From: a virus
Strand: one strand, 5' to 3'
Virus record (IMG/VR): IMGVR_UViG_3300046331_000696
Coordinates: 1-42,866 of that record
Length of the DNA stretch: 42,866 bases
Below are positions 3,317 to 42,866 of this stretch, in pieces. Under the pieces are notes generated by a model. The model did not search any database, was not told the origin of the DNA, and worked only from the letters and a program-made list of their open reading frames with translations. The stretch's first letter is position 1; each line of letters starts with the position of its first letter. The translations under genes and the position numbers were made by a program.

Positions 3317-4207
3317 ATGCAACCACAGCCCTACACCACACCCGAACTGATGATGCAAATAGAATTAGGAGCAGCCATAGCCATTTCTATTTCGGGCGGG
3401 AAAGATTCCCAAGCTTTGCTCAGTAGCGTTTTGAGCTGGTACAGAGCCAACAACCTAACCAACCAAATATTTGCTATACACGCAGATTTGGGTAGGGCTG
3501 AATGGGCGCAAACGGAGCAGTTTGTACAAGACCTTTGCGAATCCCACCAAATCCAGCTGGTTGTTGTTTCGGCTATGCACAACGGCAAGAAAATAGACCT
3601 TTTGGACAAAATAGAGCTTAGGCAAGAACAGCTCAAAAAAAGCGGACGTTTGGACGTGCCAATCTATCCCAGCATGATGCAAAGATATTGCACATCCGAC
3701 CTAAAAACAGACCCCATAAACGCATACTTCAAGCAGCAGGAATTCCCCAAGATTATCAGCGTTGAGGGTATCCGTTGGGACGAATCTAAAGCCCGTTCCC
3801 AAAAGCTTGTTTTCCAACGGAGGGATGGAATGAAGAGAGGATTAGTTCGCGGGTTCACCTGGAATGCAATAGCCCACTTCAAGGAAGCGGACGTACTGAA
3901 AGCCTGTGGAATGTCTGAAGCCGAATTTAAGCTTGGGCAATGGCAGTACAAAGCCACCGAAACCATTCCCAGCAATTGGAAAATACATCCAGCTTATGCA
4001 ATGGGCAATACTCGGCTAAGTTGCGCAATCTGCGTATTAGCATCCAAGAATGATTTTTTGAATGGCATCAAGCACAACCCACAGCTTGCCGACTGGATAA
4101 GCCAAAAGGAAGATGAAACGGGCTTCACCTACCAGCAGGGAATCAGCATCAAACAGGGACGCGCCCGACTCGCTGCACAGCTTGAACAAACAATGATAAA
4201 TTTTTGA
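3317..4207 (+). CDS. Phosphoadenosine phosphosulfate (PAPS) reductase family protein
   Basis: A 296-residue protein of the adenine-nucleotide alpha-hydrolase (PP-loop) fold. The PP-loop SGGKDS is at residues 26-31. A second conserved segment GIRWDESKAR is at 151-160. Cys125 (RYCTSDLK) and the CAIC pair at 236-239 are placed as in phage PAPS-reductase-like proteins. The family activates or transfers sulfur using ATP or PAPS. Phage members are common but their substrates are mostly unknown; proposals include DNA or RNA sulfur modification and cysteine supply. No dnd-type partner is nearby. The nearest partners are the two adenine methyltransferases downstream, so a nucleic-acid modification role is possible but unproven. 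The gene stands alone between a terminator and a 100-base gap. Confidence 0.85.
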   Translation: MQPQPYTTPELMMQIELGAAIAISISGGKDSQALLSSVLSWYRANNLTNQIFAIHADLGRAEWAQTEQFVQDLCESHQIQLVVVSAMHNGKKIDLLDKIELRQEQLKKSGRLDVPIYPSMMQRYCTSDLKTDPINAYFKQQEFPKIISVEGIRWDESKARSQKLVFQRRDGMKRGLVRGFTWNAIAHFKEADVLKACGMSEAEFKLGQWQYKATETIPSNWKIHPAYAMGNTRLSCAICVLASKNDFLNGIKHNPQLADWISQKEDETGFTYQQGISIKQGRARLAAQLEQTMINF

Positions 4208-5292: not shown

Positions 5293-6225
5293 ATGAGCTA
5301 TAATATTAAAGATATTAAAAAGGAATTTAAAACAAAAGGCATTTTTTATACACAGCCCCAGTTGGCTGAATATATAAAATCCTTGATTGATGTTCCCATA
5401 ACAAATGTTTATGACCCGACCTGTGGAGATGGTGCACTGCTAAGTTGCTTTCCCGACGATTTGCCTAAATTTGGGCAGGAATTAAACGACCACCAATTAA
5501 ATATTGCTTCCCAGCGCTTAAAAAACTTTGTTGGAGTTTGCGCGGATACTTTAATAGAACCTGCTTTTTTAGATAAAAAGTTTTCGTGTATAGTTGCCAA
5601 CCCGCCCTTTTCAATAAAATGGAATCCTCCAGTAGGATTATTTAAAGATGAGCGTTTCAATAATGCACCAACTTTGCCTCCACAAAGCAAAGCCGACTAT
5701 GCCTTCTTGATGCATATCATGTATTTGCTTTCTGATGATGGTGTGGCAATTGTGTTAAATTTCCCTGGCGTTTTATACAGAGGATACAACGAGGGGATTT
5801 TAAGACGTTGGTTTGTTGAAAATAATTGGATTGAAAAGGTTATACAAATACCTGGCAAAACCTTTATTGATACAACTATTAGCACGGCTTTATTAGTGCT
5901 AAAAAAGAATAAAACTAATACTGATATTGAGTTTATTGACAACGAGCTGAAATTATCCCGAACAGTTTCTTTTGATGAAATCGCTGCAAATAATTTTAGT
6001 TTATCGGTAAGCGGATATGTTCAAAAGCCAACTATCCAAGAAGTTATAGATTCAGCAGATTTAAATAAGCAATGTAGGCTTAGTATGTTAAGAATGCTGA
6101 GAAAAGATATTCAAGTTGATAAAATGATTTGCGAGTTAGAGGGCTGGGATTGGAATTCCTATTTGGATGAGCTTAAATCTTTAATTGACCAATATTATAA
6201 AACAACCCAACCAGTTACAAAATGA
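5293..6225 (+). CDS. N6-adenine DNA methyltransferase, HsdM-like
   Basis: A 310-residue protein of the type I/IIG M-subunit family. The order is an N-terminal FYTQPQLAEYI segment (the family's FYTP motif), motif I DPTCGDGALL near residue 42 for S-adenosylmethionine binding, and catalytic motif IV ANPPF near residue 102. This gamma-type order suits an adenine-N6 enzyme. It lacks the large N-terminal helical domain of true HsdM and has no specificity subunit nearby, so it is probably an orphan modification enzyme. Its stop overlaps the start of the next methyltransferase-like gene as ATGA, suggesting a stoichiometric pair. The likely role is protection from host restriction or marking of phage DNA. 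Confidence 0.88.
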   Translation: MSYNIKDIKKEFKTKGIFYTQPQLAEYIKSLIDVPITNVYDPTCGDGALLSCFPDDLPKFGQELNDHQLNIASQRLKNFVGVCADTLIEPAFLDKKFSCIVANPPFSIKWNPPVGLFKDERFNNAPTLPPQSKADYAFLMHIMYLLSDDGVAIVLNFPGVLYRGYNEGILRRWFVENNWIEKVIQIPGKTFIDTTISTALLVLKKNKTNTDIEFIDNELKLSRTVSFDEIAANNFSLSVSGYVQKPTIQEVIDSADLNKQCRLSMLRMLRKDIQVDKMICELEGWDWNSYLDELKSLIDQYYKTTQPVTK

Positions 6226-7004
6226 AAAAAATCAAACAATTGACCGACCAAGATTTAAAAGATGCTGAAGCTCAAATCTTGGATAAATTTGAAAAGTTTT
6301 GCGCCGAATATCAAGGAGTTGGGCAAGATAAAGTTTTTATTGACTTGGTTGATTCAATGATGTATATAGGCTCTTTGGGCAAACTTCAATTAGAAGAATA
6401 TAATCGTGCCTGCAAATTGTATGGCAGTAAAGAGCTTAAGGAGATTATTTTTGAAATATCAGAAGCAAGCGAGGGCTTTAATGATGTTTTGGGAGAAATT
6501 TATATGCACATATCAAGTAAATATAAATCGCAATCATTGGGGCAATATTTTACGCCTAATCATATTGTTGATTTAGGAGCATTGATACTTGGCATTGAAA
6601 ATAATTTAGAAGGCGCGGCAATGACTGACCCAGCAGGATGTGGAAGCGGTCGGAATATTTTAGGAATGGCTAAAAAAGTCGGGCAAGAACGCTACAAACA
6701 TTTTTTTGAAGGTGCTGATGTTGACCTTTTGTGTGTAAAAATGTGCCTTGTTAATTGCCAAATGCAAACTATACCAGCGCGCGTATTTCACGCCAACCCA
6801 TTAGAGGGCACAACTTGGGCTGTTTATGATATAAAAATGATGTATTATACGCTGACCAAGCCCGCTATTTACATGGGTGTTATTACAAAATTACCTCAAT
6901 CAGAAGCCGAAATAGCGGGTAAAAGGTTTGAATTCGCAGAAAAGCCCCAAGCGGTTCGTAGTTTTGAAAAAGCAAAAACATCAAGTCAAACAACTATGTT
7001 TTAG
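6222..7004 (+). CDS. Methyltransferase-like protein lacking the catalytic motif
   Basis: A 260-residue protein with an HsdM-like SLGQYFTPNHIVDLGALI segment near residues 105-122 and a clear motif I DPAGCGSGRNI near 135. Where motif IV NPPY/F is expected there is only HANPLEGTTW, so the catalytic aromatic and second proline are absent. It overlaps the active-looking upstream enzyme by four bases. I infer a non-catalytic partner, as in other adenine methyltransferase heterodimers. A degenerate enzyme or an unusual active site are alternatives. The N-terminal 100 residues are helical and may mediate the pairing. Confidence 0.75.
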   Translation: MKKIKQLTDQDLKDAEAQILDKFEKFCAEYQGVGQDKVFIDLVDSMMYIGSLGKLQLEEYNRACKLYGSKELKEIIFEISEASEGFNDVLGEIYMHISSKYKSQSLGQYFTPNHIVDLGALILGIENNLEGAAMTDPAGCGSGRNILGMAKKVGQERYKHFFEGADVDLLCVKMCLVNCQMQTIPARVFHANPLEGTTWAVYDIKMMYYTLTKPAIYMGVITKLPQSEAEIAGKRFEFAEKPQAVRSFEKAKTSSQTTMF

Positions 7005-7935: not shown

Positions 7936-8844
7936 ATGCAACCAAAACTAATTGGCAGAATTCAAACTCTTGAATTTTATAATGATATTCCCATTGATTC
8001 CACCTCCAACCAAAACCAAAAACACCAATCATACCCAATACATACCATGCAAACCCCACCCGCAAATTTACCCTACCAAGACTTTAGTTATAATGAAAAA
8101 AACATCCTTGACCTTTGGGTTAGCCAAGACCCCGCTAACATCCAATTAGCCAAAACATTTTGCAGAACTATCCTGCGAACTTCCCAAAAAGCCCTATTAG
8201 AAAAAGTAGGGATGTCCAACATACACGAGCGGGGAGAAACGTTTTGCAAATTGGCACCCATGACTACCTTTATCATAAAAGAAGATGATAAGTATCCTTT
8301 TGCTGGTTTTATCCAATGCAGGCTACAAATTGACTTTTTAAGGTTGTGTACAGGCTTTGAGTATTCGGCTGCTCCTGTGGATGGAGATACGTTTTTTTGG
8401 GGCTTGCAGGGATTGCCAATCACAAGATTGACAATGGCTACTAAGGGCGTGAATCGCATGGTAGTAGCGAATGGCTTAAAATCGCTATTTGGGCTTGATA
8501 GATTAGAACATATCTCAAACTACGAGCTTAGGGGCAAAAAAGTATTTGAAGACCTTGCAGAGCTTAAAAAGCTCAAGTTATTGAATGTAATTATTGATGT
8601 GAAAGAGATTTGCTTGTTTGTATCAACCATATCAAATAAGACATTGGAAGGTTTGCGTATAGGCTTTGACTGCACACGAGAAGATGAACTGGCAGAAGTA
8701 ACCGACGAACAAATTACCGAATGTTTGCAGGGGCTCAAGGAAAGGATTCCTAAAACAACGCATTTTAACTTTAATTATTCAGCGAAACATTCTCCATTTT
8801 GCGAAAGATTTGAGCGTATCCTAAACAAGATGCATAACCTATAA
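7936..8844 (+). CDS. Hypothetical protein, possibly leucine-rich C-terminal half
   Basis: A 302-residue protein not recognised as any family. The C-terminal half (about residues 165-295) has alternating leucine-rich strands and helices (DLAELKKLKLLNVIIDVKE) that resemble irregular leucine-rich repeats. The start is uncertain: ATG at 7936 has the favoured 'taacc' context, while ATG at 8047 would remove a polar 37-residue leader rich in Gln and Asn. It is the last gene of the rightward early region and converges on the methyltransferase cassette across a strong terminator. Confidence 0.7.
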   Translation: MQPKLIGRIQTLEFYNDIPIDSTSNQNQKHQSYPIHTMQTPPANLPYQDFSYNEKNILDLWVSQDPANIQLAKTFCRTILRTSQKALLEKVGMSNIHERGETFCKLAPMTTFIIKEDDKYPFAGFIQCRLQIDFLRLCTGFEYSAAPVDGDTFFWGLQGLPITRLTMATKGVNRMVVANGLKSLFGLDRLEHISNYELRGKKVFEDLAELKKLKLLNVIIDVKEICLFVSTISNKTLEGLRIGFDCTREDELAEVTDEQITECLQGLKERIPKTTHFNFNYSAKHSPFCERFERILNKMHNL

Positions 8845-8845
8845 A

Positions 8846-8879
8846 AAAAGCCCCTACAGTTTAAGCTGTAGGGGCTTTT
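8846..8879. terminator. Bidirectional terminator between convergent genes
   Basis: AAAAGCCCCTACAG and CTGTAGGGGCTTTT form a perfect 14-bp arm pair with a six-base loop. The A- and T-tracts make it functional on both strands. It separates the rightward gene ending at 8844 from the leftward gene ending at 8884. Confidence 0.9.
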
Positions 8880-8883
8880 GCGT

Positions 8884-9588
8884 CTAAAACAGGTTGCCCT
8901 GCACAAAATCGTAATTGGTAGGCAGGTTTGACCAAATCGCTTCTGTATTGTACAGGTTGGAAGCTCCTTTGCGGGTTACCATTGGCTTAAAGGGAAGTCA
9001 TTCCGCCCTGGTGTTCTCGCAAACAATCGTTTGACCTTTCCGAGACCTGCACCAGTCCGCCAATTGCTTAAAATCCAGCTTCTTTGAGCTTTTCTTGTAG
9101 GCAGTACCGCCGAAAACATAAGGCGGGTCAATGTACCAGCTAGCCTCTTGGTTCGGAATATCCTCATAAGAACCCAGCCGAACCTCCCAATGCCTAATTT
9201 TGTGCAAATTGTCCGCAATCCGTTTGTAGGTGTTGGCACGCCTATTCCCTACAAAGGCACCGAATGGGCTCACTGTTTTGCGCGGTTCAGCTGTACCGGC
9301 TCCAGCAATAAACCCCAAGAACAAAACCTCGTCCTCCGAAAGCCCCAAGGTAGTCAAATCTAATCCCCTTGTGAGCTTAGGTAGTCCAAGTATATCCTTG
9401 GGGCTGCATTGTTGTAAAAACTTTCAGATGCGAACCACCGCCTCATATTTATCCACCAGGAGAACATCCCTATCAAAATATTTAAGGGCGTACCGAGCCG
9501 AACCTGCGAAAGGCTCTATGATTTTGGAAAAAATCGGCTTGGGGTACATATGAATTATCTTAGATTTAGAGCCGTAATAGTTGAACAT
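8884..9588 (-). CDS. Dam-like adenine DNA methyltransferase with two in-frame TGA codons
   Basis: Reading leftward from ATG at 9588 to TAG at 8886-8884 gives 235 codons with no frameshift, interrupted only by TGA at codons 55 (9426-9424) and 197 (9000-8998). The protein has the Dam family order: FNYYGSKSKI at the N-terminus, motif I IIEPFAGSA near residues 23-31, and catalytic motif IV YIDPPY. Both TGA codons sit where the family normally has Trp: VVRI-x-KFLQQ and ENTRAE-x-LPF. Four other Trp codons are TGG. Conventional annotation would see only fragments, such as 8998-9357. It follows the ParB-methyltransferase fusion by 43 bases. Either UGA is decoded as Trp here, or the gene is a pseudogene with an oddly selective set of mutations. 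Confidence 0.75.
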
Positions 9589-9631
9589 TTGCGCAAAGAC
9601 TTACCAGGGACTGCCAAGCCCTGTTTTTTTA

Positions 9632-10837
9632 TCATGTGGTATCCCAAACTACACCGTTCTTTTTGACTTCCATTTCGGGGTTCAGCCGTTTCAGTCGCTG
9701 CACAATCACTTGGCAGTACTTTGGCTCCAACTCTACACCATAGCAGACGCGCCCTGTTTGTTCGGCGGCTACCATAGTGCTCCCACTTCCCAAAAACGGG
9801 TCTAAGACCAAATCCCCAATATCTGAGGAATTCCCTATGAGATACTCAAGCATCTCTACAGGTTTCATTGTGGGGTGGTCGGGGTTGCGCTGTGGCTTGT
9901 CAAAATTTAAAACGGTGGTTTGTTTTCGGTCTGCTCTTCATTTGTGAGCCGACCCCTCTATTCACCCATAGAGAATTGGCTCGTGCTGCCATTGATAATC
10001 TTGCCTACCTAAAACAAAATGTTGTTTGACCCAAATTAGGCACTGTTTTAGGCTAATTCCTGCACGCTTCATTTCGTTCCTAAACGTGTGCCCTGCTACA
10101 TCCGAATGGAAGACGTACCAAGCTGCACCCTTTTTTGTTTGGGCTGCTGTAAGCGTGTAAAATTGTTGGAGGAATTGTTCAAAAGCCTCATCTGACAAAT
10201 TGTCGTTTGCGATTTTGGCACGAGTTTTCGCAACTCCTTGATAATTCACGTTGTAAGGTGGGTCTGTAACAATGATGTCGGACTTCTTACCATCCATGAG
10301 CATCTCTAAGATGCCAGGCTGCGTACATGAACCACAAACTAACCTATGCGTTCCAATCTCCAGCAAGTCCCCGACCACAATATCCGTGTGGATTTCGTTT
10401 GATTTGGGAATTACAAAATCGTCGTCGCTTTCGGCTGCCTGTTTGGATTTGGATTTATCCTCCAGCCAATCCCCGCCAACGGCAAAATCAAGGCTTCAGT
10501 CGGATAATAATTCTTTGTCCCAATGTTCGTCCAAGACCGCAAAGTCCCATTCACCATAAGAGACATTATCTAAAATTTGCAGCCGTTTTTTTTCCTCTTC
10601 TGTAAGTGTGGAGGCTGCTTTTACCCAATTGTCGGGAATTTCTTTGTATCCCAACTTTTGGAGTGCTAAAAATCGCTGGTTACCAATGATAACCTCTTTT
10701 GTTCAATCATCATATACTAATCCTCGGTACTCCATAGCCTTGGGGAACTCCTTTAGGCTTTTCATGAGCTTATCCATGTTAGCACTTTTGATAAAACGCG
10801 GGTTTTTGGCACTCGGTTTTAAATCACTTAACAACAT
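9632..10837 (-). CDS. ParB-domain/DNA adenine methyltransferase fusion with four in-frame TGA codons
   Basis: From ATG at 10837 the leftward frame runs 402 codons without an indel, interrupted by TGA at codons 45, 114, 292 and 300 (10705-10703, 10498-10496, 9964-9962, 9940-9938). Residues 1-115 are a ParB-like N-terminal domain (LKPSAKNPRFI, IIGNQRFLAL). The rest is a beta-class methyltransferase with VTDPPYNVNY near residue 175 and C-terminal LDPFLGSGSTMVAAEQ. The family pattern predicts Trp at ELLSD-x-SLDF, ILYG-x-IEGSAHK and AHK-x-RADRKQTT. The first site is less conserved. Eight Trp codons remain TGG. The frame ends with TGA immediately followed by TAA, so reading the last TGA as Trp would add one residue. 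Such fusions are common in phages of Bacteroidota. Confidence 0.75.
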
Positions 10838-10858: not shown

Positions 10859-10877
10859 TCTGTTATAACTTAACAGA
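10859..10877. promoter_or_regulatory. Inverted repeat in the methyltransferase leader, possible operator
   Basis: TCTGTTA and TAACAGA flank a five-base spacer between the leftward promoter and the methyltransferase start. The position suits a repressor site or a 5' hairpin. No protein can be assigned. Confidence 0.4.
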
Positions 10878-10913: not shown

Positions 10914-10943
10914 CAAAAGTAAAAGGGTTTTTAATTTTTGCAA
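10914..10943 (-). promoter_or_regulatory. Bacteroidetes-type promoter for the methyltransferase cassette
   Basis: On the minus strand TTG (10943-10941), 19 bases, then TACTTTTG (10921-10914) fits the TTTG/TAnnTTTG pattern. The first ATG of the cassette is 77 bases downstream. An intact promoter argues that the cassette is still transcribed. Confidence 0.65.
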
Positions 10944-30983: not shown

Positions 30984-31358
30984 ATGCTGAACCAATATTC
31001 CAAATTCCTGCTCTTAAATGCAGTATTTGCGCAAATGTTAACCCTGCAGAAGCAGGTACAAATAGCCGATTCAAATATCGCTAAAAATCAAGCGCTTTTA
31101 GTACCGCTTGACCGTGAAGACCTTGCACCATTTGAAATGGTTCAAAAGTCAAACTACACGAACATTTTGGCAGCTTTGAACAACCAAAAGATTGTAACTG
31201 TAGCCAAAATTAACGAAATAACCGACAAGTGGGCAACAATGGGGACAATTTATGCAGGGCTTATGGTGGAGCTATCCCAGCCGAATCGGGAACAGGACAA
31301 AATCAAATTTGAGGAAAGTCCGCTCGGTATCGCTGCTGCTGCACAATTCCCTGCATGA
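30984..31358 (+). CDS. Hypothetical late protein
   Basis: A 124-residue helical protein with an N-terminal hydrophobic stretch (FLLLNAVFAQMLTLQ, residues 8-22) that could be a short membrane or amphipathic helix. No domain is recognised. The stop is TGA, and a strong terminator follows 34 bases later. It lies next to the holin-like gene, so a role in lysis is possible but not shown. Confidence 0.65.
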   Translation: MLNQYSKFLLLNAVFAQMLTLQKQVQIADSNIAKNQALLVPLDREDLAPFEMVQKSNYTNILAALNNQKIVTVAKINEITDKWATMGTIYAGLMVELSQPNREQDKIKFEESPLGIAAAAQFPA

Positions 31359-31945: not shown

Positions 31946-32016
31946 CAAAGGGTAGTTTAACAGGTAGAACATAGGCTTATGGCTGAACAATGGAGGTTCA
32001 AATCCTTCCCCTTTGA
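31946..32016 (+). tRNA. tRNA-like structure 1 (anticodon arm atypical)
   Basis: CAAAGGG and CCCTTTG form a perfect 7-bp acceptor stem with A as discriminator base. GTTT/GAAC with an eight-base loop containing GG makes a D arm. GGAGG-TTCAAAT-CCTTC is a good T arm. The intervening 21 bases do not give a normal 5-bp anticodon stem; only the short hairpin CATA-GGCT-TATG can form. CCA is not encoded. I therefore cannot name an anticodon. It may be a degenerate or remodelled tRNA. Confidence 0.45.
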
Positions 32017-32124
32017 CTAAGTGTATTTTTTTAGTTTCAATGTTTGAGCTTTGGTTTGCCCAAGAGTTGTCAAATTAAACTAAATATATTTATTGTTTCT
32101 TAGTAAAGCTCTAAGGAACAATTT

Positions 32125-32568: not shown

Positions 32569-32934
32569 TTACAGCGCGGGGATTACATATTTTGAATAAT
32601 TTGAGTCGGTTACAACCTTCCAGTCATTGGCATACACGTCGTAACCCTCTAAAACAACGGCTTGGTCAACAGTGTAACCACCGTTTTGAGAAACCAGCAA
32701 TGCACACAGGTAGGGAGAAAACTCAACCTTGGCATCCGCGCCCGATGTATTCATAACATCTTTGGCTAAATCAGGCACGGAGATAAATTTTGCCACCTCC
32801 CCAGCTGTTGTAGTAAGTCCTGGACGATAAAATAAAGCCTTGCCCTTGTATTGTGGGCGTGTGAATAAATAACCATTAGCAAGTGCTAATTCTGAAGCTT
32901 CTTGGAAGCTTAGGTTTTCCGTTTTGTTTTGCAT
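32569..32934 (-). CDS. DUF2829/Tad2-like protein (possible anti-Thoeris factor)
   Basis: A 121-residue protein. The pattern LSFQEASELALANGYLFTRP at the N-terminus, FSPYLCALLVS in the middle, and YDVYANDWKVV at the C-terminus follows the DUF2829 layout (F.EA...L..G..v.R, F.PYi...., D.lA.DW.vv). Members of that family include Tad2, which binds the signalling molecule of Thoeris defence and so blocks abortive infection. Several family positions are replaced here, so activity and ligand are uncertain. The frame is open upstream to 33060, but the ATG at 32934 gives the family-like start. Confidence 0.55.
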   Translation of the reverse strand: MQNKTENLSFQEASELALANGYLFTRPQYKGKALFYRPGLTTTAGEVAKFISVPDLAKDVMNTSGADAKVEFSPYLCALLVSQNGGYTVDQAVVLEGYDVYANDWKVVTDSNYSKYVIPAL

Positions 32935-33196
32935 GGTTGGTAATATAATTGTAATGTTTAAAAGTGTTTTTAATATTTGAAAGAATTTGCTGTACGGCAA
33001 GCTCTGTTCGCTTTTTGCGCCGTTGCTGCTCAAATTCGCGGTCTTGTGGGAACATTGCAATTAGTTGATTTATCTCCTCATCATTTAGGAAGACTTGAAT
33101 GGGCAGCGGTTCGGGCTCATACCATAGAATAACCTTGGGCTTTGTCGGGTCGTGTGGTTGGCGCGGTGCCTGTAGAGGGATATGGAATTCGGACAT
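32876..33196 (-). CDS. Hypothetical protein
   Basis: A 106-residue protein with a Pro-rich first third and a basic helical end. Its 3' part overlaps the Tad2-like gene by 59 bases. Its ATG shares one base with the stop of the methyltransferase upstream, so it is co-translated. No domain is recognised. Confidence 0.6.
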   Translation of the reverse strand: MSEFHIPLQAPRQPHDPTKPKVILWYEPEPLPIQVFLNDEEINQLIAMFPQDREFEQQRRKKRTELAVQQILSNIKNTFKHYNYITNHAKQNGKPKLPRSFRISTC

Positions 33197-34023
33197 TATT
33201 GAAAAAGTGTCGGGGTGAATGGTGTAGGTTTGGTAGGTTTTTCGGGCGCTAGTTTGGTAAAATTCATATGAATAACTGTTTTTGATTTGGGGTCTGTAGG
33301 GTCGTCGGAATAAATGGGAAATGTAATTCTTGCATAACCATCATCACAATAAGGGTCTCTACCAGCCAAACACTTATCATAATATAGCCCATGAAGACAC
33401 TCAAAAATAATAGGGAATCTATCCGATAAGCCCCAAGTTTTACTACTTGTAATAAACCCGTTGATTGTCCTTTCATAGTAATACTCATCGATTACAACAT
33501 CTTGCATATTTGGCCCCGGTTGATACAAGTCAAGTTTATTAAAACTGCAAAGCATCAGTGGGCAAACTTCTTTTAGTATTCGCTTATGAAAAAGCGCAAC
33601 AGCATCATTTGTACCATATTTATTTTTAGCATAAGAATGATGCGAGGCGGGCAGTTTCACATAGGGCGGATTGGTAAAAACGATTAGCCTATGATTGGGT
33701 ACGTTTTTGACCCAAGTAAGCAAATCTAAATTTACATTCAAAAAATCCGCCCTAGTAGCGGGATAGTCTTTATTTTCCAGCAAATATTTGCAATCTCCCC
33801 ATTCCAAAGTAGTAGCATACTTTTCGCAGTATTCGGGCAAAGCATCCAGCAAAGCACCTTCACCGGCTGCCATATCCCAAAAGTAATAATCCCACAAATT
33901 CGGGCTTATATCCGAATACTCATCAATAAGGGCTTTTTGGATATACTCTACAGCTTTTTCCGCCCACCGCTTGGGTGTATAAAAAGCCCCTGTTGCTTTT
34001 TGGCGCTCTTTGGTTAGTTTCAT
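33196..34023 (-). CDS. N6-adenine DNA methyltransferase
   Basis: A 275-residue protein with GAFYTPKRWAEKAVEYI near residues 12-28 (FYTP segment), motif I WDMAAGEGALLDAL near 49-62, and catalytic motif IV FTNPPYV near 116-122. The order is that of gamma-class adenine methyltransferases. Trp codons here are normal TGG. It overlaps the kinase upstream as ATGA, so both come from the same message. As an orphan enzyme it probably protects phage DNA from host restriction. No restriction subunit is seen. Confidence 0.85.
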   Translation of the reverse strand: MKLTKERQKATGAFYTPKRWAEKAVEYIQKALIDEYSDISPNLWDYYFWDMAAGEGALLDALPEYCEKYATTLEWGDCKYLLENKDYPATRADFLNVNLDLLTWVKNVPNHRLIVFTNPPYVKLPASHHSYAKNKYGTNDAVALFHKRILKEVCPLMLCSFNKLDLYQPGPNMQDVVIDEYYYERTINGFITSSKTWGLSDRFPIIFECLHGLYYDKCLAGRDPYCDDGYARITFPIYSDDPTDPKSKTVIHMNFTKLAPEKPTKPTPFTPTLFQ

Positions 34024-34829
34024 TCGTTATCTTGGAATAGTATGTCCGAATCGTCCAGCATATCCGCCAATCCCTCCCAAGCCTTATGTATGATAGAATC
34101 GGGTTCGGGTGGGGTTTGGCTAGCATGGTAATGAGCATTTACAATATCGCAGACCTTGTTCACTTGCCCCTCCAAATCCTCCACCAATTCGGAAAATTTA
34201 AGTTCCACAACCTTACAATTCGTGCCTTCTGAATCTACCAGGTAGTGAAGCCCAAACCGCCAATAATAATCAGTCATTTCCTCATAGGTTTCCATTGGGA
34301 ATACATTAAGCTCGGCTACGCGGTCTTCCTGCTCTTGGGCGCGTATGAGTGCATTTTGATAAGCATCCTTTGCGGGTATGCTGATATTGATAAGCGCGTC
34401 AATTTGGAAGTCGCTGAATAGATGTGTACGCGTTTGGAGCAAAACGCCCAAGTCTCGGTCGGCAATCATTCCGCGCTGGTGCAAATTGTTCCAAAAGAAC
34501 TCATCCTCCAAAGGTGAACGCTCCATAACAATCGCATCGCAACCTTTGCTAATAGCCTCTTTTATCATATTGGCGCGGTCGTAAAGCATAGCGACTTGAA
34601 ACCTATACACAATGTCTTGCACCTTGGGCGTCTCGGGTGTTACCGAAAAGTATTCTGCTGCGAGCTTGGAGGTTTGGCTATCTTCCCAAAATTGAGGCTC
34701 ATTCATAGCCCAAATATTCACGCTTGGCATTTGGGAGCATAATTTGGGATAAAACTCATCCAAAAAGGTGCTTTTGCCTGCAGCAATGGGACCAGCCACA
34801 GAAATAATATACATTTTCTTACTTTGCAT
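34020..34829 (-). CDS. Deoxynucleoside kinase-like protein
   Basis: A 269-residue P-loop protein. Walker A GPIAAGKST is at residues 13-21. A VMERSPLEDEFFW segment carries the ERS motif of the deoxynucleoside kinase family, which helps bind the substrate. A lid-like region with QEQEDRVAE follows. The reaction would be phosphorylation of deoxynucleosides for phage DNA synthesis. I choose the ATG at 34829 over the longer frame to 34889, since the latter overlaps the upstream gene more; MYII at 34814 is a second option. The C-terminal 60 residues are acidic and beyond the usual family end. Confidence 0.8.
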   Translation of the reverse strand: MQSKKMYIISVAGPIAAGKSTFLDEFYPKLCSQMPSVNIWAMNEPQFWEDSQTSKLAAEYFSVTPETPKVQDIVYRFQVAMLYDRANMIKEAISKGCDAIVMERSPLEDEFFWNNLHQRGMIADRDLGVLLQTRTHLFSDFQIDALINISIPAKDAYQNALIRAQEQEDRVAELNVFPMETYEEMTDYYWRFGLHYLVDSEGTNCKVVELKFSELVEDLEGQVNKVCDIVNAHYHASQTPPEPDSIIHKAWEGLADMLDDSDILFQDNE

Positions 34830-35049
34830 CGGATTGGGTTGGATTTGTGGTGTTAAAATAATCTTCTGTGGGCTCCCAGTCTGCAACAAACTTGGGCGGT
34901 GTTCTTAGTAAAAGCGAGTCAAAGACAGTACAATCAATAAATTGCGCTTGAACTGTTGGTGTTTTTTGGTTAAAATCGCTATTATAACTTGTTGCATTCA
35001 TTTCAGCGAAAATATCTACAATCTGCTTATATCCTACTAAGTGCTCCAT
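34819..35049 (-). CDS. Hypothetical protein
   Basis: A 76-residue protein with no recognised domain. It overlaps the kinase by 11 bases and starts one base into the stop of the gene before it (TAATG type), which shows tight operon packing. Confidence 0.65.
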   Translation of the reverse strand: MEHLVGYKQIVDIFAEMNATSYNSDFNQKTPTVQAQFIDCTVFDSLLLRTPPKFVADWEPTEDYFNTTNPTQSDAK

Positions 35050-38789: not shown

Positions 38790-38934
38790 GTTTGGGAGGG
38801 GTTGCGGGTTTGTTATATTCTTGTCGGATAGAGTTCCCAGCGTACAGGAACATGGCAATTACAAATAGGGAGAAGTTGCCAGGATTCGGGGCGGTTATGA
38901 GCCAAGCCAACAAAACAAATAGGATAATTATCAT
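38770..38934 (-). CDS. Small membrane protein, 54 residues
   Basis: From ATG at 38934 to TAA at 38772-38770. It has a hydrophobic start (MIIILFVLLAWLI), a short Pro/Asn turn, a second hydrophobic stretch (FSLFVIAMFLYAG) and a basic Pro/Lys tail. It overlaps both neighbours by a few bases, as do the other genes of this run, which supports it being real despite its size. Confidence 0.65.
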   Translation of the reverse strand: MIIILFVLLAWLITAPNPGNFSLFVIAMFLYAGNSIRQEYNKPATPPKHGKKTK

Positions 38935-39173
38935 TTTTTACTTTGGGAAACAATTAGGAAAAGGGCAAGTAGTAAGACAAAGGCAAATCCAAAACCCGAA
39001 ACAACAAGTTCGGTATCAACGAAGGGGTTTTGCAGTTGCCAGCGGTTGTAAAAGTTCCGCAAAAAAGCACCCAAGCATACCCCGAAAAACACAATCAGCA
39101 GTCCCAAAAAAGGATTAAATTTTGTCGACTTTACAATAGCCTGGCTTTGCGGTTTATGCTTCGTTGTCTTCAT
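38931..39173 (-). CDS. Small membrane protein, two helices
   Basis: An 80-residue protein with a basic start, a first hydrophobic helix near residues 21-37 (FLGLLIVFFGVCLGAF) and a second near 58-75. The ATG at 39173 is preferred to the open frame up to 39233, which lies in the gene before. The third copy of the TTTGTCGAC repeat (39121-39140) is within its coding region. Confidence 0.65.
   Translation of the reverse strand: MKTTKHKPQSQAIVKSTKFNPFLGLLIVFFGVCLGAFLRNFYNRWQLQNPFVDTELVVSGFGFAFVLLLALFLIVSQSKK
39121..39140. repeat. Third copy of the TTTGTCGAC 20-mer
   Basis: TTTGTCGACTTTACAATAGC differs from the copy at 7843-7862 at one base in 20. It lies in a coding region here and in a non-coding gap there. 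Confidence 0.55.
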
Positions 39174-39525
39174 TGGTTCGGTTTGTTTTAGATAAAACGT
39201 TGTCAAGGTCTGCTTGGGTTGGGTGTTCCACAAAATAAATTTTGTGCAATTTTAACATTGCGCTGTAATATTGCTTTTTCAAGCTATATTCTTGGAATCT
39301 TTCACGATTATGCAAAAGTGTCCGCCTTGCACCCCCAAGGCATTCTCTGAGGTCATTATTTTGCTCTAATAATTCATTGACCCCAGATTCAACTTTTAAA
39401 ACTTCCTGTTGAAGTTTATCGGCAAGTATTTCGGCTCGGGTTAATTTTTTTATATAAATTGACATACGAATTACGTGGGTAACAAGTAGGAAAACAATGG
39501 TAATTATTAAAGAAATGTCTTGCAT
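39154..39525 (-). CDS. Membrane-anchored coiled-coil protein
   Basis: A 123-residue protein with an N-terminal helix (ISLIITIVFLLVTHVI, residues 4-19) and a coiled coil (about 28-65). The layout resembles i-spanins or small anchored regulators, but it lies in the early leftward operon. It overlaps both neighbours by about 20 bases. Confidence 0.65.
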   Translation of the reverse strand: MQDISLIITIVFLLVTHVIRMSIYIKKLTRAEILADKLQQEVLKVESGVNELLEQNNDLRECLGGARRTLLHNRERFQEYSLKKQYYSAMLKLHKIYFVEHPTQADLDNVLSKTNRTNEDNEA

Positions 39526-40363: not shown

Positions 40364-40736
40364 AATCGGAAAGTATTTGAATGTTTGTGTTGATGATTGA
40401 TAAAGCAGCGTCCAAGTATGCGTTTAGCATTGTTTCGGACATGGAAACGATTGGGGCAATGCCAGGGGCTATTCTTAGAATGTGGATTTCTTTTTGAGCT
40501 TCACCGCCTGGGGCTTCCCATTCCTCACAAAGAAAACTCAGCAGGGATATTTTAACCCAAAGCGGTTGTATATTATCCAGCTGGTATTTTTCGTGTTGGT
40601 ATTTGAGGGGATTGGCTTGTATCCATGCTTGGAGTTCAAAAAGCCAATCCCTAAAGGTTAGGCTATCCTCAAGCTTGAGGATGCCAAGCTTCTGTTCTAA
40701 GCTTGTTCTTTTCTCGGTTGGGCTGGAGTTACACAT
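40356..40736 (-). CDS. Hypothetical protein
   Basis: A 126-residue helical protein rich in Leu and Trp. The open frame goes up to 40844, but those codons overlap the next gene. The ATG at 40736 gives a 40-base overlap. The function is unknown. Confidence 0.65.
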   Translation of the reverse strand: MCNSSPTEKRTSLEQKLGILKLEDSLTFRDWLFELQAWIQANPLKYQHEKYQLDNIQPLWVKISLLSFLCEEWEAPGGEAQKEIHILRIAPGIAPIVSMSETMLNAYLDAALSIINTNIQILSDYA

Positions 40737-41269
40737 ATAATTTGAGTGGCTTTTAACAATCTTACCTGTGGTTTTTCTTGACCCGGTATATTTTCCATAT
40801 ACATGATATTGCCATTTTTTGCCTCTCTTTCTTTGAGTTCGCAAATAGCCTCTGCGTTTGCGGTACGTTCTTCACCATCTAATTTGATGTATTTGATAAC
40901 CACCGCGTTGCGACGTATATTTGTTTGGTAGCGTGCGTATGCGATTTTGAGCGCTTCAGCAATACCAATCCCGCCAATTATGGTTTTAGTGAAAACATTT
41001 GCTTGGGTAACAACGTACTGCAAAAGTTCCTGCATCATGGATTGTACAAGCTCGGATTTGGCTTGTTTTTGCTCGGCAACTGTTTGGGTGGGTTGCTCGG
41101 CTGGGGTTTGCTGTGCTTCAAGCTCGGCAATGATTGCTGCCTTATTTGCTCTGTAGAATGCGTATGCTTCTTTGAAGGCTTCAGCTTTAGTAATTGTACC
41201 GTTTGAGTTCCAATACAAGTTGTTTGCGTATTTCGCTGCGAAAGCGGATGCGTGGTTTGTGCGTTTCAT
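40697..41269 (-). CDS. First gene of the leftward early operon, hypothetical
   Basis: A 190-residue protein. Residues 1-80 are helical and Ala/Gln-rich; residues 130-155 (VVIKYIKLDGEERTANAEAI) resemble the strand pattern of the DUF2693-like protein at 7548, a weak likeness only. I take ATG at 41269; the longer frame to 41338 runs through the promoter. As first gene behind a strong promoter it is probably expressed at once on infection. Confidence 0.7.
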   Translation of the reverse strand: MKRTNHASAFAAKYANNLYWNSNGTITKAEAFKEAYAFYRANKAAIIAELEAQQTPAEQPTQTVAEQKQAKSELVQSMMQELLQYVVTQANVFTKTIIGGIGIAEALKIAYARYQTNIRRNAVVIKYIKLDGEERTANAEAICELKEREAKNGNIMYMENIPGQEKPQVRLLKATQIICVTPAQPRKEQA

Positions 41270-41295
41270 ATTGTTGATTGCTTTGGTTTGCAATA

Positions 41296-41327
41296 CAAAG
41301 ATACGTCGACTTTTTAGAATCTCCAAA
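41296..41327 (-). promoter_or_regulatory. Leftward early promoter
   Basis: On the minus strand TTTG (41327-41324), 20 bases, TATCTTTG (41303-41296): an exact Bacteroidetes match with the same spacing as the promoter at 1280. The next 32 bases of leader duplicate 1302-1333, so both operons probably answer to the same regulator. Confidence 0.85.
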
Positions 41328-41368
41328 TAAAAAGACACTTTTTTTTAAAAAAAAGTGTCTTTTTATTT
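41325..41368. repeat. Perfect 44-bp palindrome between divergent promoters (copy 2)
   Basis: Two 22-base arms meet without a spacer, with the core AAGACACTTTTTTTT and its complement. Each end (ATTT followed by G) provides the -33 TTTG of the promoter pointing outward. It can act as a two-way terminator and as a shared regulator site. Copy 1 is at 1241-1280. Confidence 0.85.
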
Positions 41369-41397
41369 GCACGTGTTAAAATAATGGTCGTACTTTG
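41366..41397 (+). promoter_or_regulatory. Rightward early promoter for the replication initiator
   Basis: TTTG at 41366-41369, 20 bases, then GTACTTTG at 41390-41397: a variant of the Bacteroidetes -7 box. The initiator ATG is 20 bases downstream. The leader shares TTTGTA and CAAACCA with the other two early leaders. Confidence 0.7.
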
Positions 41398-41417
41398 TAC
41401 CACAAACCACATATAAT

Positions 41418-42866
41418 ATGAAAACGAACATCCAAGACCTTATACTCAACAACACCAGCTATATGTTACTGCCTTTCCCGCTCATTCAAAAGGTTGGGTT
41501 CAAAGCTGCCTGTTTTTACGCTTTTTTGGTGAATAAATCCAGCTTTTATTCAGGTGCTTGGTTTTACTGTAAATCTGAAGAAATAGAGGCGGGTATTGGA
41601 ATGGGGCGTACCATGCAAGGCAATTGCATAGAAACCTTAAAGGAAACAGGTATATTATTGTGTGAATTGCGCAAAGATTCCGAGCGGGGTTTTTTGAAGT
41701 ATTTCAACGTTTGCGATTGCGCGGATGCCTTAGCAAAGGTTATCTCGGAAAATAGCGCAATAGATATAAAAAATAATAATTTGGGAGTGCACAAAATCAA
41801 CAGTCGCGACTGCACAAAATCAACAGTCGGGACTGCACAAAATCAACAGTCGGGAGTGTATGAAATCAACAGTCGGGAGTGCTCAAAACATACAGTCGGG
41901 AGTGCTCAAAACATACAGTCGTTTATTAAAGAAGAATATACTAATAAACAAGAAGTAAATAAAGAAACCAATAAAGAAGAAGTAAACCCTTCTTTGTCGG
42001 GGGCGGGCTTTAAAAAATTAGTTTTGAACTCCGATTTGGTAAATTCTTGGATAGCAGAAACAGGGGCAAAGGTTTCGGAGTCGCTGGGGCTTTTATTGAA
42101 TGAATATTTTATTAAAAAAAATACCAAAAAAGATATTAGCCTGAAAAAACAAGAATTACAAAATTTTCTTAAAATTGCGCAAAACAAAGAAATTCCCGAT
42201 GCTGCCCTTGTTAGCTATATGCACACGGCTTTGGTTGGCAAATCGGGTAAGGCTTGGGTCTGCCTTGCTTGGTATGAGGAAACAATAACAAAAATTCTAA
42301 AAGGGCTACAGCCGACCACCCAAGCAGAGAATATTTCTAATAGCCTTTTGGATAACCCCAATGCTATGCAAATTTTTTCAACCTTTGCGACTGCGTTCAC
42401 TTGGGATATTCCAACAAATTCCAACGATACTGAGAAAGAGGTACGCTTGAGAAACTGCTTATCGGGGAAAGGGATGATGCAGCATGAGGAAACCCGCGCA
42501 AAGGAATTTTTTAATATGCTCCCCGTTGGTACCGACCTTGCCAAGCTGGTAGGCATTTTGACCAACCTAATGAAACACTTGGGTGTTGAGTACCAAATCA
42601 TCAAACAAAATGTGGAAGGACAAAAAATGTACAACAAGCCAAGAACCGACTATACAGCGAGCACCGCCCGTGCAGGCTTTTTTGCAAAATGGGTAACTGG
42701 TGGGCAATATGTGAAAAACGAAAACCGCGCCCCAATTTGGAAAAACGAACCATCCACCAACGCCTACTATTTTCCGCCCAGCTTAAAATCTTTTTTCTTA
42801 GAATTGCGTAAAAAACACACAGGGCTGAACGATGCTATTTTTGCGGAATTTTGGGCGGTGGTGTTC
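41418..42866 (+). CDS. Replication initiator protein, winged-helix type, with internal origin (continues at base 1)
   Basis: The gene is open from ATG at 41418 to the window end and continues at 1-509, giving 595 residues in all. Residues 1-110 look like an N-terminal winged helix of phage replication proteins: a helix-rich region with KVGFKAACFYAFLV, then SEEIEAGIGMGRTMQGNCIE (recognition helix type) and a beta hairpin. Residues about 123-168 are encoded by six 23-bp iterons and give two copies of a 23-residue repeat. A Lys/Glu-rich linker follows. This is the layout of lambda O, where the initiator binds iterons within its own gene. No helicase, primase or polymerase gene is in the window, so host enzymes must be recruited. 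Confidence 0.8.
   Translation, partial: MKTNIQDLILNNTSYMLLPFPLIQKVGFKAACFYAFLVNKSSFYSGAWFYCKSEEIEAGIGMGRTMQGNCIETLKETGILLCELRKDSERGFLKYFNVCDCADALAKVISENSAIDIKNNNLGVHKINSRDCTKSTVGTAQNQQSGVYEINSRECSKHTVGSAQNIQSFIKEEYTNKQEVNKETNKEEVNPSLSGAGFKKLVLNSDLVNSWIAETGAKVSESLGLLLNEYFIKKNTKKDISLKKQELQNFLKIAQNKEIPDAALVSYMHTALVGKSGKAWVCLAWYEETITKILKGLQPTTQAENISNSLLDNPNAMQIFSTFATAFTWDIPTNSNDTEKEVRLRNCLSGKGMMQHEETRAKEFFNMLPVGTDLAKLVGILTNLMKHLGVEYQIIKQNVEGQKMYNKPRTDYTASTARAGFFAKWVTGGQYVKNENRAPIWKNEPSTNAYYFPPSLKSFFLELRKKHTGLNDAIFAEFWAVVF
41785..41922 (+). repeat. Six 23-bp iterons inside the initiator gene
   Basis: Copies begin at 41785, 41808, 41831, 41854, 41877 and 41900, each exactly 23 bases. The shared core is GA(G/C)TG...CAGTCG. 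Copies 2 and 3 hold the inverted ends CGACTG and CAGTCG around 11 bases. Copies 5 and 6 share the variant CTCAAAACATA. The period is not a multiple of three, so three copies span 23 codons and the protein repeats at that period. Confidence 0.9.
41785..41990. other. Probable replication origin (iterons plus AT-rich segment)
   Basis: The iterons are followed at 41921-41985 by a segment made almost only of A, T and G on this strand (TTTATTAAAGAAGAATATAC and onwards). This would serve as an unwinding region. Iterons followed by an AT-rich stretch within the initiator gene is the layout of the lambda origin. Confidence 0.75.
42697..42866. repeat. Right copy of the terminal repeat
   Basis: It matches bases 1-170 with four differences and closes the genome circle. 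See the left copy for positions. Confidence 0.85.

Follow-up and report, generated by a model that had tools for sequence, protein, structure and literature searches.

Can a gene that is interrupted only by UGA, in a phage that otherwise uses UGA as a stop, still encode a working protein? The question is raised by a two-gene methyltransferase cassette in IMGVR_UViG_3300046331_000696, an IMG/VR virus record taken in full (42,866 bases; referred to herein as the window, i.e., the entire stretch of DNA that was analyzed), and we addressed it by comparison with homologues and with a second phage that carries the same cassette.

The cassette and its genomic setting

The window is likely a complete, circularly permuted genome, because its terminal 170 bases (1-170 and 42697-42866) match at 97.6%. 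It encodes a terminase and a portal protein, and its promoters are of the Bacteroidota type TTG-N-TAnnTTTG. A scan of IMG/VR returned one close relative of both cassette proteins, IMGVR_UViG_3300037882_004961 (the relative), a phage of 43,884 bases with an exact 99-base terminal repeat that is collinear with the window. The cassette lies on the minus strand, flanked by plus-strand genes, and is preceded by a promoter and followed by a terminator hairpin:

10914..10943, minus strand, Bacteroidota-type promoter TTG-N19-TACTTTTG, upstream of the cassette
10860..10876, minus strand, operator-like palindrome CTGTTAAGTTATAACAG, before the start codon
9632..10837, minus strand, ParB-domain/N6_N4 DNA methyltransferase fusion (ParB-MTase), 401 codons plus terminal TGA
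8884..9588, minus strand, Dam-like D12-class methyltransferase (Pfam PF02086), 234 codons, stop TAG
8843..8879, minus strand, terminator-like hairpin and T run downstream of the cassette, conserved in both phages

The ParB-MTase matched Pfam PF01555 (E = 1.5e-29) and, over residues 3-392, phrog_498 (E = 8e-123), and its PDB relatives are ParB and proteins of the CcrMI/DpnA type. It meets the features of phrog_498 and PF01555 (a ParB-like N terminus, an N6_N4 methylase domain, and DPPY and GSGST motifs), and the Dam-like protein meets those of the D12 family PF02086 (the D12 profile, with PFAG and DPPY motifs). With UGA translated as Trp, the Dam-like protein was predicted by AlphaFold2 with a mean pLDDT of 84.6 and a pTM of 0.84. 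Codon 402 of the ParB-MTase is TGA with TAA directly after it in both phages, and it is possible that this TAA is the true end of the gene. The initial annotation had described an intact promoter and an operator-like repeat ahead of the cassette. The promoter type held in both phages (TTG-N18-TACTTTTG in the relative), and the repeat is present in the window and absent from the relative, in which the remaining upstream DNA is unrelated. Besides the cassette, the window contains two adjacent N-6 DNA methylase (N6_Mtase) genes (5293-6225 and 6222-7004) joined by an ATGA overlap, and the phage therefore carries several methyltransferases.

In-frame TGA codons and the columns in which they fall

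The ParB-MTase contains four internal TGA codons (45, 114, 292, and 300) and the Dam-like gene two (55 and 197), and neither gene in the window has an internal TAA or TAG or a frameshift. This agrees with the initial annotation, which had reported two frames with six TGA codons (four plus two), free of TAA, TAG, and indels; its codon counts of 402 and 235 held once stops were counted, as did its statement that twelve other Trp codons are TGG. The six sites are as follows:

10703..10705, minus strand, TGA at ParB-MTase codon 45, next base A; TGA in the relative; variable column
10496..10498, minus strand, TGA at ParB-MTase codon 114, next base A; the relative has TGG followed by G; closest homologues have Trp
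9962..9964, minus strand, TGA at ParB-MTase codon 292, next base A; TGA in the relative; invariant Trp
9938..9940, minus strand, TGA at ParB-MTase codon 300, next base A; TGA in the relative; Trp, with some Phe
9424..9426, minus strand, TGA at Dam-like codon 55, next base A; TGA in the relative; invariant Trp
8998..9000, minus strand, TGA at Dam-like codon 197, next base C; the relative has TGA followed by T; invariant Trp

More than 100 homologues in total were compared at these columns, with ParB-MTases being 40-50% and D12 proteins 42-63% identical to the cassette proteins. Column 292 is Trp in all of 30 aligned ParB-MTases, and columns 55 and 197 are Trp in all of 24 aligned D12 proteins, while codon 45 (and codon 71 in the relative) falls in a variable column. 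The initial annotation had placed at least four or five of the TGA codons at family Trp positions and had set the homologue columns beforehand as a refutation test; the claim held, with invariant Trp at three columns, Trp or some Phe at column 300, Trp in the closest homologues at column 114, and only column 45 variable.

Apart from the relative, all of the homologues use TGG, including those of Dyadobacter and other Bacteroidota. No TGA-bearing ParB-MTase was found among the 80 nearest homologues other than the relative, no TGA-bearing D12 protein among 31 other D12 relatives in IMG/VR, and no TGA-bearing homologue in ~785 sampled genomes. When further phages in IMG/VR were sought by the pattern of TGA in place of Trp 292, Trp 300, or Trp 55, only the relative or chance matches were recovered. 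TGG is therefore the ancestral state, and TGA arose on the line leading to the two phages.

UGA is a stop codon in the rest of the phage

Only the cassette is recoded, and UGA is a stop in the rest of the phage. Within the window, 6/18 cassette Trp codons are TGA, compared with 0/134 elsewhere (Fisher, 1e-6). Other genes contain ~136 TGG codons per phage (~270 over both) and no in-frame TGA; an internal TGA was seen once in the orthologous pairs and was an out-of-frame artifact of a split alignment. Both phages terminate 30984-31358 and 38931-39233 with a conserved TGA, and the TGA that closes gene 3317-4207 in the window has a TAA at the corresponding codon of the relative. The two ATGA overlaps that had been cited as examples of UGA serving as a stop, at 6222 and 34020, are both present. 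TGA stops are few, at 7/56 in the window and 2/58 in the relative (automatic gene pick). The seven curated window TGA stops (2099-2530 to 38931-39233) have an in-frame TAA or TAG within 18 codons or fewer (p = 0.036 versus genes ending in TAA or TAG), which may hint at leaky UGA termination in the host, and five of these seven are themselves UGA-A.

A search for a tRNA with a UCA anticodon, i.e., one that would read UGA, had been proposed as a check; run in the phages with ARAGORN default settings and Rfam, it detected none in either, and relaxed ARAGORN settings returned hundreds of chance matches and were uninformative. The only tRNA in the window is tRNA-Ile(UAU) (31946-32017), and the relative has none. 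UAU is an unusual tRNA-Ile anticodon in bacteria. A search for the host via the portal protein gave no match at E ≤ 1e-20 in 395 Bacteroidota genomes.

Selection has maintained both full-length proteins

The relative carries the cassette at the same locus, with TGA at five of the six window sites (45, 292, 300, 55, and 197). Two exchanges were observed: codon 114 is TGA in the window and TGG in the relative, and codon 71 is TGG in the window and TGA in the relative. Between the two phages the ParB-MTases share 72% protein identity, with saturated synonymous sites (dS 1.8), and the Dam-like proteins share 93% identity with a dS of 0.5, a lower value that could reflect some recombination. With TGA read as Trp, dN/dS was 0.096 for the ParB-MTase and 0.087 for the Dam-like gene, and six other orthologous phage genes had values higher than either (0.15-0.35). 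The stretches downstream of the last TGA were the most constrained, with dN/dS of 0.071 in ParB-MTase codons 301-401 and 0.027 in Dam-like codons 198-234, and in all segments tested nonsynonymous changes per site were fewer than synonymous ones (Fisher p of 6e-7 to 5e-27 for the ParB-MTase segments). None of the four genes from the two phages carries a TAA, a TAG, or a frameshift, though 37-83 codons per gene lie one step from each.

Low dN/dS through and beyond the UGAs means that selection has kept full-length proteins since the phages diverged. Strong purifying selection has thus acted on both proteins while the UGAs were present, and the cassette UGAs are read as Trp at least sometimes, a conclusion that is established via purifying selection and without peptide or expression data. 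Relatives with added frameshifts and other stops would have spoken for ordinary decay according to the initial annotation; the relative has none, and strong purifying selection was found instead. The pattern is carried by two phages only, most TGA sites are shared by descent, and a search for more phage relatives via the conserved gene 40697-41338 recovered only IMGVR_UViG_3300037882_004961.

The base after the codon

In the cassette, UGA is almost confined to sites at which the next base is A, and this next base matters. All cassette Trp codons followed by A are TGA (5/5 in each phage), and TGG is followed by A at 0/12 sites in the window and 0/11 in the relative. Counted from the TGA codons, five of six precede A in each phage (Fisher, 7e-4 in the window and 1e-3 in the relative), with the single exception in both being Dam-like codon 197, which is UGA-C in the window and UGA-U in the relative. 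The next base switches along with the Trp codon at codons 71 and 114, which read TGG-G in one phage and TGA-A in the other. Outside the cassette, 43-44 of the ~135 TGG codons in the window precede A, and internal TGA-A never occurs.

About a dozen intact out-of-frame TGGA sites had been noted initially, and we counted 13 in the window and 14 in the relative; the sister codons CGG-A, GGG-A, and AGG-A are likewise common and not depleted. Because the pattern is specific to the frame while these sites are intact, the rule applies to Trp codons that are translated and does not reflect a mutational footprint. In Escherichia coli, misreading of UGA by tRNA-Trp is strongest when the next base is A (PMC5289835, citing Engelberg-Kulka 1981).

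A proposed UGA-gated methyltransferase module

We propose that the cassette encodes two working methyltransferases and constitutes a conditional, UGA-gated module read by a host tRNA-Trp, an explanation that we consider as likely to be wrong as right, with activity, decoder, and host all being inferred. UGA would be decoded by a host-supplied tryptophanyl-tRNA, probably through near-cognate reading by tRNA-Trp(CCA). That decoding is near-cognate rather than cognate is inferred from the A rule, and that it is conditional is inferred because other phage genes never risk TGA. Because all UGAs must be passed, output would vary with roughly the fourth power of readthrough for the ParB-MTase and the second power for the Dam-like protein. 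Serial UGAs would then form a steep gate, with the methyltransferases made only at high UGA readthrough, such as when RF2 is scarce, when a leaky tRNA-Trp is present, or in a particular host or infection state. From the families concerned, the likely role would be to methylate phage DNA against host restriction or to alter host DNA, with methylation timed appropriately or restricted to the appropriate host.

Several observations count against such a gate. TGG-A is frequent elsewhere in the window and never replaced by TGA-A, and most normal UGA stops are UGA-A, so decoding has to be restricted to certain times, hosts, or transcripts. Dam-like codon 197 is UGA-U in the relative, a poor readthrough context, and decoding is therefore not limited to UGA-A. 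At a few per cent per UGA, a gene with four UGAs would yield essentially no protein, so decoding would have to be far above known leakiness.

The initial annotation had offered three options: that UGA is read as Trp under some condition, that the cassette came from a lineage in which UGA encodes Trp, or that it is a selectively damaged pseudogene. Reading of UGA as Trp is supported and the damaged pseudogene is rejected, while our data do not decide between conditional reading and origin in a UGA=Trp lineage as the source of decoding. The UGA-before-A rule, which was absent from that annotation, favors a near-cognate tRNA-Trp over wholesale import of code 4.

A bolder reading, which we consider less likely than not, is that UGA=Trp applies to this one cassette, with a serial UGA-A gate and no phage suppressor tRNA. 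If true, a change of code can stay within one transcription unit of a standard-code genome and act as a switch, and UGA would be read as Trp far above known efficiency in certain infection states or in certain uncultured hosts among the Bacteroidota. Annotation pipelines would label such genes pseudogenes, and similar modules are thus perhaps widely overlooked. The UGA-A rule makes the question of the decoder directly testable.

Alternative explanations

A serious rival, and a possible one, is a split in host range, whereby the phage infects both standard-code and UGA=Trp bacteria; only in the latter would the methyltransferases be required and produced, and genes needed in both host types would avoid in-frame TGA. 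In its favor, the rest of the genome looks code-neutral (no in-frame TGA, few TGA stops, and backup stops), as has been reported for phages proposed to infect hosts of either code (PMC10746230). However, this leaves the confinement of TGA to sites before A unexplained, the promoters and nearest relatives indicate ordinary Bacteroidota, and no UGA=Trp Bacteroidota host with a TGA-bearing homologue was found in the ~785 sampled genomes; to our knowledge, no UGA=Trp Bacteroidota host has been described. It is unlikely that the cassette is instead switched on only when a cognate suppressor tRNA (UCA anticodon) becomes available, whether from the host, from another prophage, or from a UGA-recoding phage infecting the same cell. 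Such a tRNA would account for efficient passage of four UGAs and for the UGA-U site of the relative, and among UGA=Trp crAss-like phages of Bacteroidota only 11/73 have their own opal suppressor tRNA (PMC11210395), but neither phage here encodes one and a cognate suppressor would need no following A. Similarly improbable, though not excluded, is that the cassette originated in a lineage that reads UGA as Trp, recently entered both phages, and is silent there. Recent import would account for cassette-only TGA and intact genes, and the contrast in dS between the Dam-like gene (0.5) and the ParB-MTase (1.8) suggests some recombination. Against it, the two phages share the locus, the same much more diverged neighbors, and the terminator, so that two separate recent arrivals of diverged copies at one site would be required; furthermore, the homologues found were all TGG and no code-4 source was found.

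Decay and artifact are all but excluded. An ordinary pseudogene or G-to-A hypermutation has in its favor that TGG becomes TGA by one transition, and phage morons often decay. However, dN/dS is <0.1 through and after the TGAs, there are no other lesions, and TGA is conserved between diverged phages, while hypermutation is contradicted by the untouched out-of-frame TGGA sites and sister NGG-A codons. Sequencing or assembly error might be suspected since each phage is a single metagenome contig, but five TGA sites are common to two contigs whose proteins are 72% and 93% identical. We also rejected a selenoprotein, as the UGA columns are Trp, not Cys, and there is no downstream SECIS hairpin. No shared RNA structure was found after the UGAs in twelve 67-nt windows, and no raised synonymous conservation was found around the UGA sites; a SECIS-like element is therefore disfavored. 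A-to-I editing of mRNA from UGA to UGG was set aside on the site preference of TadA, an enzyme that edits at TACG, not TGAA.

Comparison with known systems

By features met, the cassette fits local stop-codon recoding or readthrough, in that constraint extends past the stop (dN/dS 0.07 and 0.03) and the base context is prone to readthrough (UGA-A at 5/6 sites per phage); conserved RNA structure is the exception, and the full-length product is inferred. Classification as a table-4 phage was rejected, with three features not met (TGA=Trp over many genes, UGA unused as a stop, and a UCA tRNA), of which the UCA-anticodon tRNA is not universal in UGA-recoded phages (PMC11210395). The cassette shares in-frame UGA at Trp with table-4 Crassvirales and with Mycoplasma and Spiroplasma phages, and crAss-like phages also infect Bacteroidota. 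In those phages, however, the change is genome-wide or covers whole late-gene blocks, often with a suppressor tRNA, whereas here it involves two genes only, with UGA a stop elsewhere, no tRNA, and UGA tied to the next A.

Prokaryotic genes with conserved in-frame stops and low dN/dS have been interpreted as readthrough (PMC7918605). Those cases mostly involve single stops of any type, while the cassette has six UGAs together, at Trp columns, with exchange of TGA and TGG and a base-context rule. Readthrough of UGA-A by tRNA-Trp (Engelberg-Kulka 1981, in PMC5289835) is similar in that Trp is inserted at UGA via a CCA anticodon and A is favored, and a leaky tRNA-Trp(CCA) with a 4-bp anticodon stem is reported in bacteria (PMC13092985); known natural leakiness of tRNA-Trp is low, however, and the cassette needs four UGAs passed in one frame. 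The proposed two-host phages of PMC10746230 likewise have backup stops near TGA stops and avoid in-frame TGA, as these phages do outside the cassette, but they avoid it everywhere, whereas here one cassette departs. In domain content and motifs the cassette proteins resemble phrog_498 ParB-methyltransferases and PF02086 D12 proteins, and they differ from the examined homologues of both families in that these use TGG only.

Other features of the phage genomes

The long gap at 41339-42866 was considered as a recoded region and rejected, because it is a normal open frame that the contig ends interrupt. The frame runs from near 41415 across the window ends into 15-509, and its counterpart in the relative is a 589-aa gene. 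The product of 3317-4207, common to both phages, is a PP-loop/PAPS-reductase-like protein that might modify DNA or tRNA. Other window genes encode a deoxynucleoside-kinase-like protein (dNK; 34020-34889) and a protein with a weak match, under the curated cutoff, to a Tad2-like anti-Thoeris domain (32572-33060).

A repeated element of ~110 bases is present at 1236-1348 and, on the minus strand, at 41263-41368, and the relative also has two copies. Its parts are, in order, an AT-rich hairpin (AAAAAGACAC...GTGTCTTTTT), a TTG-N-TATCTTTG promoter, and a start codon, and its copies precede genes on opposite strands. Near a D12 homologue, at L003:829-3260, three similar variable-protein-like ORFs are followed by a reverse transcriptase, an arrangement that resembles a diversity-generating retroelement.
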